In this document: positions 59,453 to 64,000 of the stretch, one piece after another
Position numbering within the stretch: the stretch's first letter is position 1
Layout of the letters: each line of letters starts with the position of its first letter
From: Anaerolineae bacterium
GTDB lineage: Bacteria; Chloroflexota; Anaerolineae; Anaerolineales; E44-bin32
NCBI GenBank assembly: GCA_011174825.1
Contig: DUEZ01000006.1
Span: 62,001-126,000, forward strand
Length of the DNA: 64,000 nucleotides
Direction: 5' to 3'
Notes under the pieces: model-generated
The model's input: only the letters and a program-made list of their open reading frames with translations
What the model was told of the DNA's origin: nothing
Databases searched by the model: none
Translations under genes and position numbers: made by a program

Positions 59453-60487
59453 ATGAAAAACCTCATCGCTTACACCGTCGTGTCCTCACCGGAACATAAT
59501 CTTGCTGGTCACCCGGAGAATCCGCGTCGCTTTCAACATTTCAGTCGACTTGCGGACTCCCCCCTTTCTGAAAAACTTCTTCGAATAGAACCTCAGGTAG
59601 CTCCAATGCCAGTTGTCACTGCAATCCACCCACAATCCTACGTTTCAGCATTGGAGCAAGCTGCTTCTCAAGGGCCGGGATTTCTCGATCATGGAGACAC
59701 TTATGTCACCACAGCTTCATACCAGGCTGCACTTGAAGCTGCAGGAGGGGCAATTGAGGTCGTCCAAGCAGTCATCGAAGGTCAAGCCAGAAGTGGTTTC
59801 GCGCTCATAAGACCCCCAGGACACCACACCTCAGCTACGCGTCCATCGGGTTTCTGCTTACTCAACAATATCGCTATTGCTGCCCGTTATGTCCAGTCGC
59901 TCGGATACAAACGGGTGATGATCTTTGATTTTGATGTCCACCATGGCAATGGCACCCAAGATCTTTTCGAGAAGGATCCAAGCATCTTATACATTTCAAC
60001 ACATCAATATGGTATCTATCCTGGAACAGGTTCGATACACGAAACTGGCTCTGGTGAAGGAAGTGGTTCGGTTGTCAACATCCCTCTCCCTGCTCGCGCT
60101 GGAGATCAAGCTTTTAACGCTATCACCGATCAATTGATTGAACCCATCGCTAAACGTTTTCAACCAGATATTCTTCTAATCTCTGCAGGATTCGACGCTC
60201 ACTGGAATGATCCGCTTGCCAGCCTGCAATTATCAACCACAGGATACAATCAACTTGGCACTTCTTTGTTCCTTATGGCTGAGGAATTATGCGAAGGCAA
60301 GATCGTTTACTTCCTCGAGGGAGGATACGATCCAGATGATTTATGGGACAATGTTCTTGCCATTCTCTATTCTCTGGCGAAAGAATCTCTTCCTGTAGAC
60401 CGTTTGGGATCAGCTCCTTTTCCCGAAGAAAGCATTGATCATATTGTTGAGACCCTTCAAATCCTTCATGGCATCAAACCTTTGTGA
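59453..60487 (+). CDS. Histone deacetylase-family amidohydrolase
   Basis: This zinc-dependent family deacetylates acetylated amines: acetylpolyamines, acetoin-related compounds or protein lysines. The 344-aa protein has HPENPRRF, ALIRPPGHHTSATRPSGFCL (about 118-138, the paired His), IFDFDVHHGNGTQD (about 160-173, zinc ligands), SAGFDAHWNDPLA (about 244) and FLEGGYDPDD (about 286). All catalytic residues are present. The substrate cannot be read from the sequence. It stands as a single gene upstream of the TPR/Trp-Leu repeat protein. A sirtuin is also in the window, at 261. Confidence 0.93.
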   Translation: MKNLIAYTVVSSPEHNLAGHPENPRRFQHFSRLADSPLSEKLLRIEPQVAPMPVVTAIHPQSYVSALEQAASQGPGFLDHGDTYVTTASYQAALEAAGGAIEVVQAVIEGQARSGFALIRPPGHHTSATRPSGFCLLNNIAIAARYVQSLGYKRVMIFDFDVHHGNGTQDLFEKDPSILYISTHQYGIYPGTGSIHETGSGEGSGSVVNIPLPARAGDQAFNAITDQLIEPIAKRFQPDILLISAGFDAHWNDPLASLQLSTTGYNQLGTSLFLMAEELCEGKIVYFLEGGYDPDDLWDNVLAILYSLAKESLPVDRLGSAPFPEESIDHIVETLQILHGIKPL

Positions 60488-60593: not shown

Positions 60594-63500
60594 ATGGCAG
60601 AGATAAGTTTGCGCGCCTACGTTAAAGAGATCGATCATCTCGTCGAACAAGAACAACTCGATAGGGCGATTGCCCACTGTCGTCATATCCTTGACACCTA
60701 TCCCAAACACGTCGATACATATCGGGTCTTAGGAAAGGCTTACCTTGAAGCTAAACGCTTTGGAGACGCAGCAGATATCTTCCAACGCGTTCTCTCAGCT
60801 GTACCCGATGACTTCGTATCACATATTGGGATGGCTATCGTTCGTGAGGACGAGGGAAATCTTGATGCAGCTATATGGCACATTGAGCGTGCCTTCGAGA
60901 CCAATCCTGCCAATCCTGCTATTCAACAAGAATTACGTAGGCTCATTGGGCGTCGTGATGGGCTCGAACCGCATAAAGTACGTATGACGCGCGGTGCCTT
61001 GGCCCGAATGTATGCGCATGGCGAACTCTACCCTCAGGCAATTGCTGAATTAACCTCAGCGCTGAAGGATGATTCAGATCGACCAGATCTCGAAGCTCTA
61101 CTGGCAACCATGTACTGGCGATCCAACCAAGATGTCGAAGCGGCAGATGTATGCAACCGCATCCTTACCAAACTTCCACACTGTCGAGAAGCCAATCGGA
61201 TTTTAACCGCCATCCTCCAGAATGACAATAAGATGGATGATGCGAAGCTATACCATCGAAGATTGGCAGCATTGGATCCTTACGCTGCTTTCGTTGAAAC
61301 AGCAAATATTGATCCACAAACTGTGGACGAGAGCATGGTTCGTCTTCAGAAATTGGAATGGCAACCCGGAAAGCCCATGCCAGCAGTCGAACCAGCACAA
61401 CCCGAGTGGGCTGCTTCATTAGGTGTGGATTTAGGTGAAGAAGAACCAGAAGAAGCGATTGTACCTGAGGATGAGGAAAAACCTTCTTGGCTCAAAGATC
61501 TCGAGAAGCCCATAGAACCAGTCGAAGCAGAAGAGCTAGCAGAATCCTTTGAGCCGAGCATAGAACCGACACCTAGCCCAGAGCCGACGGCAGAAGCTGA
61601 GATCCCCGATTGGATGCGAGAAGCTGGTTGGCAAGAACTGACTGGCGAAGCCGTTGAGGCTCCCATTTCATTTACGGAGGAAGAGTTGTCAGCACTTGAA
61701 AAAGGTGAACCGTTACCTGAGGGAGAACCAGAAGAAGAAGGTGAACTCGCGCCAGCCGACATCCCTGGTTGGTTACAGGATATCGCCCCACCAGAATCAG
61801 AACCAACCACCCCCGAGCCTGCTGGTATCGTGGAAGGTGAATTTGAGGCGAGAGAAGACGAAGATATTCCAGATTGGTTGAGCGAGATCGACGAAGATAT
61901 AGCAGAGATACAACCGGAGATAGAAGAACTCCCTTCAGTAGTACCTGAAATTCCTGTTGAGGGGACGGTTGCAGAGATCATAGACGACATGGTGGTCGAT
62001 GAAGCTGTACCTGAAGAAGCAGAGTTGGTTGATGAGAAAGGTACTGGTGGGCTGCCTACATGGCTCGAAAGTGAGACACCAGGCGCGACGACGACCATCG
62101 TCACCTGGCTTGGTGATCGAGAAATCCCCGATATGGGCGCGCTGTCAGATGAGATCCCCGAGGATCTTGAAGAGGCACGCCCTAGTGAACCCGTCAGTGA
62201 AAAAACGGAAGAAGTGGAAGAGGAAATTCCTTCATGGCTTGCAGAGCCCGAACTAGAGGGCGAGGAAGTTGCCGACGAAGAAGCCGCACTACCTTGGCTG
62301 GCGAAGATCTCGGAAACAGCTGATCAAGTGGAAGAAGAAGCCGTAGAAGATGTGGCGCCTGAACCAGTCGAACCTATTGCCGTGGACGAAGCACCATCTT
62401 GGCTCGCTGAGATACCAACTGAAGAGGAACCAGCAGCTGCTGCCCCAGAGGATTTTGAACCTGCAGAAGCTGAAGAAGTTCCGTCCTGGCTGGATGAGAT
62501 AGCTGAGGTCGCTACCGAAGAGATTCCCGAACCAGAAGTGGCTGTTCCAGAAGTTATCGAACCTGTCGATGAGGAAGAAGCCCCATCGTGGCTCGCCGGG
62601 ATCGCTGCCGAAGAGATTCCCGAACCAGAAGCCGCTGTTCCAGAAGTTATCGAACCTGTCGATGAGGAAGAAGCCCCATCGTGGCTCGCTGGGGTGGCTG
62701 AGGTCGCTGCTGAACAGGAACTACCTCCCGCACCCGAGGAGGCGCCCGCGGAACTTAAACCTACTCCTGCGGTGTCAGAAGACGATGTTCCGGATTGGTT
62801 GAAATCCATATCCGAGCCAGGTCTTGAACCTTCTGTCGCATCAACGCCTATTGAAGAAGGACCTGCATGGCTCGAGGGCATTGCAGAGCCTGAGGCTGAA
62901 ATCCCTTCCGAAGACCTCCCGATTCCAACCCCCGAAGCTCCGGAATGGCTGAAAGGTATTGCGGAACCCGAGGCGGAAATGGATCTTACCGAAGAAATAG
63001 CGGCAGCACAGGAGGCACCAGGTTGGCTATCCGGGATCGCTGAACCCGAAATTGCAGAGGAACCTGCTGGAGAGGCTCCGGAATGGATGCAGGAATTTAC
63101 CGATGCAGCAGAAGAAGAGCTCGAACCAACAGTAGAGGAACCAACCCCCGAAGAACCTGAAGTGATCGAGGCCAGGGTGGATATTCCTGAGGTGGCAGAA
63201 CCCCTGATGGAACCGGAAGCAGAAAGAGTGCTTCCAACTGAAACCGAGCATCCCGCCGAAGTGGTTTCTGGTGAGGAACTGGATGATGACGAAGTGCTTG
63301 GTTGGTTAGAAGGGCTCGCTGCTCGACAAGGTGTAGAAGAAGAAGAATTGATCACAACCCCGGAGGAGAGATTGAGTGAACTACCCTCCGAAATTGAAAA
63401 ACCACTAGAAGAGGCCGTGGTTGAAGACATTGACATTCCGGAAGAACCTGAAGAGAGCCTGGAATGGCTCGAACGTCTTGCCAGCGAACGTGGACTCGAC

Positions 63501-64000
63501 ATCGACATTACCCCTCCAGCCCCAATTGAAACAGGTGAAGTGGAAGTTGTAGAACCTGATGCTCCTGAGTGGCTCGATCAATTGGCAACCCAGCCGATCC
63601 CGAAGATTACACCCGAGCTTGAGGCCGAGATCCCAGACTGGCTAGCCGAGGAAGAGGTCGTTGAACCCGCTGAACCTGCGGTTGAACCTACCCCACCTCC
63701 TGAAGCGGTCGTTCCTACTGAACCTCCCCCACCAGAGCCCACCCCAGAACCGGTAGCCGAGGTCGAGCCTGTCGCACCTCCGGAACCGGTTACTTTTGAA
63801 CCCCCACCCGAAGCCCCACCAGCTGCGGAACCGATAGATCTTGAGCCTGAGATTGAAATTGAAGCTGAAATCCCTCCTCCTCCGGAGCCGGTTGCCTTCG
63901 AACCAGAACCCGAAATTCCACCCGCCGTCCCCCCTACGGTAGAAGAGATCCCCGTTGAACCTATCAGTGTAGGACCCCCTGCTGAGCCGTTGGCTATCGA
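60594..64000 (+). CDS. TPR protein with long acidic tail carrying 21 Trp-Leu/Met motifs (partial at 3' end)
   Basis: An uninterrupted frame from ATG 60594 (GAGGTG upstream) to the end of the window, at least 1135 residues. Residues 1-245 are TPR-like helices (LDRAIAHCRHILDTYPKHVD, RVLGKAYLEAKRFGDAADIF, NLDAAIWHIERAFETNPANP). From about 290 the chain is Glu/Pro/Ala-rich, predicted disordered, and holds 21 W-L or W-M motifs spaced about 34 residues apart on average, mostly of the form P-x-W-L (IPDWL, APSWLAGI, APEWLKGIAEPE). After the last motif (about residue 1015) a Pro/Glu-rich stretch continues to the edge. There is no signal peptide or membrane helix in the visible part. I do not recognise a named family for the tail. 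The TPRs probably bind a protein, and the motifs another. Confidence 0.85.
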   Translation, partial: MAEISLRAYVKEIDHLVEQEQLDRAIAHCRHILDTYPKHVDTYRVLGKAYLEAKRFGDAADIFQRVLSAVPDDFVSHIGMAIVREDEGNLDAAIWHIERAFETNPANPAIQQELRRLIGRRDGLEPHKVRMTRGALARMYAHGELYPQAIAELTSALKDDSDRPDLEALLATMYWRSNQDVEAADVCNRILTKLPHCREANRILTAILQNDNKMDDAKLYHRRLAALDPYAAFVETANIDPQTVDESMVRLQKLEWQPGKPMPAVEPAQPEWAASLGVDLGEEEPEEAIVPEDEEKPSWLKDLEKPIEPVEAEELAESFEPSIEPTPSPEPTAEAEIPDWMREAGWQELTGEAVEAPISFTEEELSALEKGEPLPEGEPEEEGELAPADIPGWLQDIAPPESEPTTPEPAGIVEGEFEAREDEDIPDWLSEIDEDIAEIQPEIEELPSVVPEIPVEGTVAEIIDDMVVDEAVPEEAELVDEKGTGGLPTWLESETPGATTTIVTWLGDREIPDMGALSDEIPEDLEEARPSEPVSEKTEEVEEEIPSWLAEPELEGEEVADEEAALPWLAKISETADQVEEEAVEDVAPEPVEPIAVDEAPSWLAEIPTEEEPAAAAPEDFEPAEAEEVPSWLDEIAEVATEEIPEPEVAVPEVIEPVDEEEAPSWLAGIAAEEIPEPEAAVPEVIEPVDEEEAPSWLAGVAEVAAEQELPPAPEEAPAELKPTPAVSEDDVPDWLKSISEPGLEPSVASTPIEEGPAWLEGIAEPEAEIPSEDLPIPTPEAPEWLKGIAEPEAEMDLTEEIAAAQEAPGWLSGIAEPEIAEEPAGEAPEWMQEFTDAAEEELEPTVEEPTPEEPEVIEARVDIPEVAEPLMEPEAERVLPTETEHPAEVVSGEELDDDEVLGWLEGLAARQGVEEEELITTPEERLSELPSEIEKPLEEAVVEDIDIPEEPEESLEWLERLASERGLDIDITPPAPIETGEVEVVEPDAPEWLDQLATQPIPKITPELEAEIPDWLAEEEVVEPAEPAVEPTPPPEAVVPTEPPPPEPTPEPVAEVEPVAPPEPVTFEPPPEAPPAAEPIDLEPEIEIEAEIPPPPEPVAFEPEPEIPPAVPPTVEEIPVEPISVGPPAEPLAI
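62515..62700 (+). repeat. Recent 93-bp tandem duplication inside the W-L repeat tail
   Basis: Units 62515-62607 and 62608-62700 are nearly identical at the DNA level over 93 bp (31 codons), each encoding EEIPEPE-AVPEVIEPVDEE and APSWLAG. Differences are a few bases only. This shows in-frame unit duplication as the way the tail grows. Confidence 0.85.

Follow-up and report, generated by a model that had tools for sequence, protein, structure and literature searches.

A TPR protein of Anaerolineae with a disordered tail repeating a Pro-x-Trp-Leu motif: a candidate multivalent adaptor-scaffold

The window analysed here is a stretch of 64,000 nucleotides from an Anaerolineae bacterium (G000:C59:62001-126000), at the end of which lies a gene encoding a large TPR protein. 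The plus-strand reading frame had been described as open from 60594 to 64000, and an ORF check of the window bears this out, with an ATG at 60594 and the frame open to the window end. Beyond that end the gene stops at G000:C59:126718, the equivalent of window position 64718, such that the product is 1,374 amino acids long. The long open reading frames on the minus strand are probably composition shadows of the Glu/Pro-rich coding strand. The features of the gene that fall within the window are as follows.

60594..64000, plus strand: TPR-tail-TPR gene, ATG at 60594, stop outside the window at the equivalent of 64718
60594..61379, plus strand: N-terminal TPR head, residues 1-262 (Pfam, AF2, dN/dS)
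61380..63713, plus strand: predicted disordered, Glu/Pro-rich tail with motifs, residues 263-1040 (composition, AF2)
61482..63644, plus strand: W[LM] array of 21 motifs, the PxW[LM] form accounting for 17; the first Trp is residue 299 and the last is residue 1016 (motif counts, profile, pair comparison)
61662..61706, plus strand: PISFTEEELSALEKG, residues 357-371, an isolated stretch with a loose resemblance, judged by eye, to the PFSL repeat of the other-class orthologues described below
63291..63524, plus strand: pair of Pro-less class-II motifs resembling WLExLAxxQG, with their Trp at residues 904 and 958 (sequence)
63714..64000, plus strand: start of a Pro-rich tract linking the motif array to the C-terminal TPR, which itself lies outside the window (sequence, Pfam)

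The head (residues 1-262) is a TPR domain, matching Pfam TPR_19 at 1.2e-17 and modelled by AF2 with a pLDDT of about 97 across residues 1-260. It leads into a Glu/Pro-rich tail of ~1,000 residues as a whole, Pro-rich after residue 1040, whose disorder is judged from its composition and from AF2 confidence, the pLDDT between motifs being mostly below 60 in the modelled part. A preliminary description, made from the window sequence, had proposed just such a head and tail, and both are indeed present, but the protein continues beyond the tail. Following the gene to its stop, as was advised there, revealed a second, C-terminal TPR module of about 85 residues (Pfam TPR_19, 3e-6; TPR_11, 1.5e-6), and AF2 confidence is 93-98 for the head and this module alike. 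As to whether the C-terminal TPR stacks on the head, a few fold alignments span residues 1-782, but at 16-21 A rmsd. Pfam and NCBIfam returned only TPR for this protein, plus one sub-cut-off repeat match in the tail (E 0.18); in other words, neither collection holds a family that covers the tail; a match to a known family of different function had been named beforehand as one that would speak against the reading of the tail as a ligand. The bacterial TPR families of NCBIfam (PrsT, MamA, PilW and others) resemble the head in their TPR repeats and leave the tail uncovered, and as equivalogs all score far below cut-off, the best being PrsT with 70 bits against a required 312.

Between residues 281 and 1040 the tail contains 22 Trp, of which 21 stand in W[LM] and 17 in PxW[LM], the same counts as first reported. 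These are far above those of 2,000 composition-preserving shuffles, in which W[LM] occurs 1.7 times on average (maximum 7) and PxW[LM] 0.24 times (maximum 3). The spacing, given earlier as fairly even at about 34 residues, has a measured mean of 35.9 and is more regular than chance, with a CV of 0.41 where random placement gives 0.92; P is 5e-5, rising to 0.014 when a 12-residue exclusion is imposed. The background is likewise as had been described, rich in Glu (25%) and Pro (19%) and poor in other aromatics, with 0.9% Phe and no Tyr. The consensus of pooled motif profiles is [ED]-[LIAV]-P-[DE]-W-[LM], followed by a less marked preference for a hydrophobic residue at +4; such a residue stands at W+4 in 16 of the 21 W[LM] motifs. 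EDIPDWLSEIDED and EAPSWLAEIAE are examples of the motif. In the AF2 models short helices start at the W motifs and the linkers are of low confidence. The Pro-less class-II motif, WLExLAxxQG, looks like a longer helix, and the PISFTEEELSALEKG stretch is modelled as a helix with a pLDDT of about 85.

Comparison of close relatives shows that the motif is maintained. Tail identity in close pairs amounts to no more than 47-78%, with up to half of the non-motif tail positions changed, and yet the Trp and Leu of the motifs are almost all retained: in five pairs the Trp and Leu kept number 21/21 and 21/21, 13/14 and 13/14, 14/14 and 14/14, 14/14 and 13/14, and 13/13 and 12/13, and in a sixth 17/21 and 16/21. 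For the four pairs close enough for a dS estimate, dN/dS is 0.03-0.08 in the folded ends and 0.18-0.31 in the tail. Since the motif residues are kept while the tail around them diverges, the motif is under selection. Trp is, however, a generally conserved residue, and therefore its retention alone is no proof of binding.

A scan of named genomes found relatives encoded in 306 stretches, mostly from MAGs. The 79 loci that were kept come from Anaerolineae and Chloroflexi MAGs and from Anaerolinea thermolimosa, Levilinea saccharolytica, Bellilinea caldifistulae and Ornatilinea apprima. Of 61 relatives, 54 were found to have the head, almost always as one copy and at 35-92% identity, and head, tail and C-terminal TPR co-occur across the family (the set of complete proteins is defined by a loose C-terminal signature and may include one or two truncated ones). 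Readable tails among the relatives carry 2-26 PxW[LM], vs well under one in shuffles, counts which may be affected by the collapse of repeats in MAGs, from which most of the genomes come. What becomes evident is that the architecture and the motif persist throughout the order, and that the TPR-tail-TPR gene is near-universal and single-copy in a large, mostly uncultured bacterial group. Its neighbours include ndk at 31 of 41 loci, rsfS at 26 of 41 and a histone-deacetylase-family gene at 19 of 41, the labels of these clusters being taken from their members in locus L002. Two kinds of protein deacetylase flank the TPR-ndk pair, in the form of histone-deacetylase-family and Sir2-family genes (window 59453-60487; L002 5278-5997).

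The same folded ends occur elsewhere with a different tail. In families f31, f41 and f70, from genomes of another class (as assigned through a kinship listing alone), the head and C-terminal TPR are kept, and the tails, of up to 1,800 residues, contain almost no W[LM]; they repeat instead PFSLxELGLSxEEIAxL, in up to about 30 copies. A profile of this repeat matches only the TPR protein in those genomes. The preliminary description had taken the loss of Trp with retention of the rest as evidence against its reading of a multi-copy short linear motif as a multivalent ligand. Within Anaerolineae no such loss is found, and the conservation of Trp-Leu in a fast-evolving, predicted disordered tail is in keeping with that reading; between the classes the motif is replaced and the folded ends stay, and thus the scaffold is not tied to PxWL. 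Two different repeated motifs on the same folded ends constitute a natural experiment. A same-class orthologue (L250, genome G146) has a tail that repeats another Trp motif, ADWRADLRETTEALLAE, in place of PxWL, possibly a third tail motif. Three of the other-class tails (L240, L242 and L244, the three tested) contain an embedded sigma-70 region 1.1-like domain (PF03979, E 7e-8 to 3e-6, above cut-off).

Within its own genome the motif is not confined to the TPR protein. By profile and pattern searches, repeated matches occur in exactly two proteins, the TPR protein and a zinc-ribbon protein with a transmembrane helix; the remaining matches in that genome are single, with E above 1. This second carrier has 740 residues, comprising a zinc ribbon, a Glu/Pro segment with PxWL, a transmembrane helix and a further domain. 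It resembles the TPR protein in its repeated motif, its Glu/Pro-rich segment and the genomes in which it is found, and differs in lacking TPR, in its zinc ribbon, transmembrane helix and further domain, and in its operon. Neither this carrier, nor the C-terminal TPR, nor the replacement of the motif figured in the preliminary description, as none of them can be read from the window. The gene order is conserved: DUF6754, a membrane protein, the zinc-ribbon/PxWL protein, a membrane protein and a MutL-family protein (L092 5015-12191; L123-L127; L267-L272), to which some genomes add a KOW/RnfC_N-like protein. In the open-access literature we found no paper on DUF6754, and both the zinc-ribbon/PxWL/TM family and the DUF6754-MutL operon appear to be undescribed. 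A PDB sequence search with the MutL-family protein gave no significant match, and its candidacy as a relative of FtsA was rejected, the profile comparison being insignificant (1% probability).

The pair of TPR and zinc-ribbon/PxWL proteins recurs in relatives, although the cases in which both families have PxWL come from a small number of independent lineages, and the PFSL class is an exception. In six other-class genomes the zinc-ribbon orthologues hold 14 to 63 PxWL copies, and in other-class genomes the TPR protein has lost the motif, from which it follows that a common partner is not obligatory. Two zinc-ribbon-family proteins (L267 3705-8273 and L269 4398-8855) carry 63 and 49 copies in near-identical tandem units, which suggests a recent expansion. 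Some zinc-ribbon orthologues have no PxWL, and in some the zinc ribbon itself is absent or unclear; in the two PxWL-less cases where the TPR protein is comparable (G077, and G193 with a short tail) the TPR protein is also without PxWL, the comparison being thin in G074, G186 and G162. Conversely, in genomes of family f36 no zinc-ribbon protein was detected although most of their TPR proteins carry 3-7 PxWL, which speaks against a strict pairing.

The tail displays the features of a multivalent short linear motif, namely many copies, in a chain predicted to be disordered, kept by selection. The reading that we favour, at a probability of roughly 0.55, is that the protein is a multivalent adaptor-scaffold, the WL helices of which serve to collect a partner in the cytosol, probably one common with the membrane protein. 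Two folded TPR modules bracket a long, predicted disordered tail displaying about 5-30 copies of a putatively helix-forming [DE]-[ILVA]-P-x-W-[LM]-x-x-hydrophobic motif. Each copy would dock in a hydrophobic pocket of the partner, and many weak copies would gather it by avidity; the TPR ends would bind something else, or each other, and thereby place the assembly. Because the motif is common to both proteins, the zinc-ribbon protein of the DUF6754-MutL operon probably holds this partner at the membrane as well. Bacterial scaffolds built of many copies of one short motif are, to our knowledge, few. The preliminary description knew of no named bacterial system with this motif, and none was matched here either; nor did we find, among open-access papers, one on such a TPR-tail-TPR protein.

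The nearest working analogue found is PEX5, the eukaryotic peroxisomal import receptor, which combines TPR with a disordered region holding several Trp-based helical WxxxF/Y motifs that bind membrane-associated PEX14 (PMC8086558). Both proteins have a TPR domain, and the motif described here often has a hydrophobic residue at W+4. A fold search with the head returns TPR structures, those of PEX5 among them, a match that is to TPR in general. In PEX5-type receptors the TPR groove serves to bind cargo by its C-terminal targeting peptide. The differences are, however, substantial, in that the present protein is bacterial, has TPR at both ends, Pro at -2 and up to about 30 copies, and position +4 is mainly Ile, Leu, Ala or Val rather than Phe or Tyr. 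As the tail does not follow WxxxF/Y, the protein is not filed as a PEX5.

With regard to the partner, the strongest lead is offered by a likeness to the conserved FtsZ C-terminal peptide (DIPAFLR), with Trp in place of Phe, as both sequences follow an acidic-aliphatic-Pro-x-aromatic-Leu pattern. The FtsZ peptide is a ligand of FtsA (PMC5832921). The gene for FtsA lies next to ftsZ in the present genome, and the FtsZ tails of these genomes, D-[IVL]-P-[APT]-F-L-R, are close to the PxWL of other-class zinc-ribbon proteins, [DE]-[VLI]-P-[ADS]-W-L-[RQ]. A specific form of the adaptor reading would thus have PxWL dock, as a mimic of the FtsZ tail, on FtsA or another receptor, both PxWL proteins then regulating or anchoring the division machinery. 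We consider this unlikely. The aromatic is Trp in every copy of the motif and never Phe, whereas in FtsZ it is always Phe and never Trp, and the Arg that follows Leu in FtsZ is missing from most copies in the present protein, both of which argue against a simple identity with the FtsZ tail. Moreover, FtsZ bears its peptide once, at the end of a tubulin-fold GTPase, which the TPR-tail-TPR host is not, and a likeness over six residues may arise by convergence where the background is of low complexity. More tentatively than the adaptor reading, if less doubtfully than direct mimicry, PxWL may be a recognition code in wide use among Chloroflexota. A single receptor, which may be one that reads FtsZ tails, would then recognise both the zinc-ribbon protein and the Anaerolineae TPR hub. 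The other class would have re-coded its hub tail with PFSLxELGLSxEEIA to suit a different receptor, the scaffold's folded part being fixed and the motif exchangeable. The genome itself has two FtsZ genes (L090 and L091), with tails NDLDIPAFLRRR and DNLDLPAFLRKRVSIG, and several relatives also have two.

Short peptides are known ligands of TPR grooves, and the motifs could instead dock in those of the protein itself, in cis or between molecules, driving homotypic assembly. In the N-terminal half of the head, Y43, K48, E52, R84, W95, H96 and R121 are invariant in Anaerolineae and different where the tail is of the PFSL type, as self-binding would have it. These differences also follow phylogeny, though, with which any co-variation of head and motif is confounded (it was rejected as a test on that ground), and L250, which has no PxWL repeat, keeps several of these residues. 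Given, further, that AF2 gave no confident docking of motifs on the head and that the zinc-ribbon family has the motif without TPR, we give self-binding about as little weight as FtsZ mimicry. Least probable of all is that nothing specific is bound and that a low-complexity tail has grown by duplication, with Trp-Leu kept as a generic sticker or through repeat homogenisation, for while near-identical tandem units in some homologues (DGLPDWLDELAD in L077; the arrays of L267 and L269) show that duplication does multiply the units, tandem repetition is not the rule among the tails, their linkers vary as Trp and Leu stay in place, and an unrelated second family has the same Pro-x-Trp-Leu pattern.

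On the adaptor-scaffold reading, a receptor for PxWL, once found, would open two conserved families and the DUF6754-MutL operon together. A ComEA-like helix-hairpin-helix lies within at least 10 Anaerolineae tails, ahead of the C-terminal TPR (L156, L158, L161, L164, L172, L184, L185, L189, L194 and L201), and a helix-hairpin-helix is found also in the tails of L072, L073 and L077. In the two tails tested the match to HHH_3 has E values of 1e-16 and 1e-20, and some members with such tails may contact DNA. A caspase-like protease domain is joined to distant homologues of the head, with 19-26% identity, in L312/G162, L314/G087, L317/G178, L318/G210 and L330/G077; the L330 piece, the one tested against Pfam, matches Peptidase_C25 at 1e-12, and sequence similarity places the remaining four with it.
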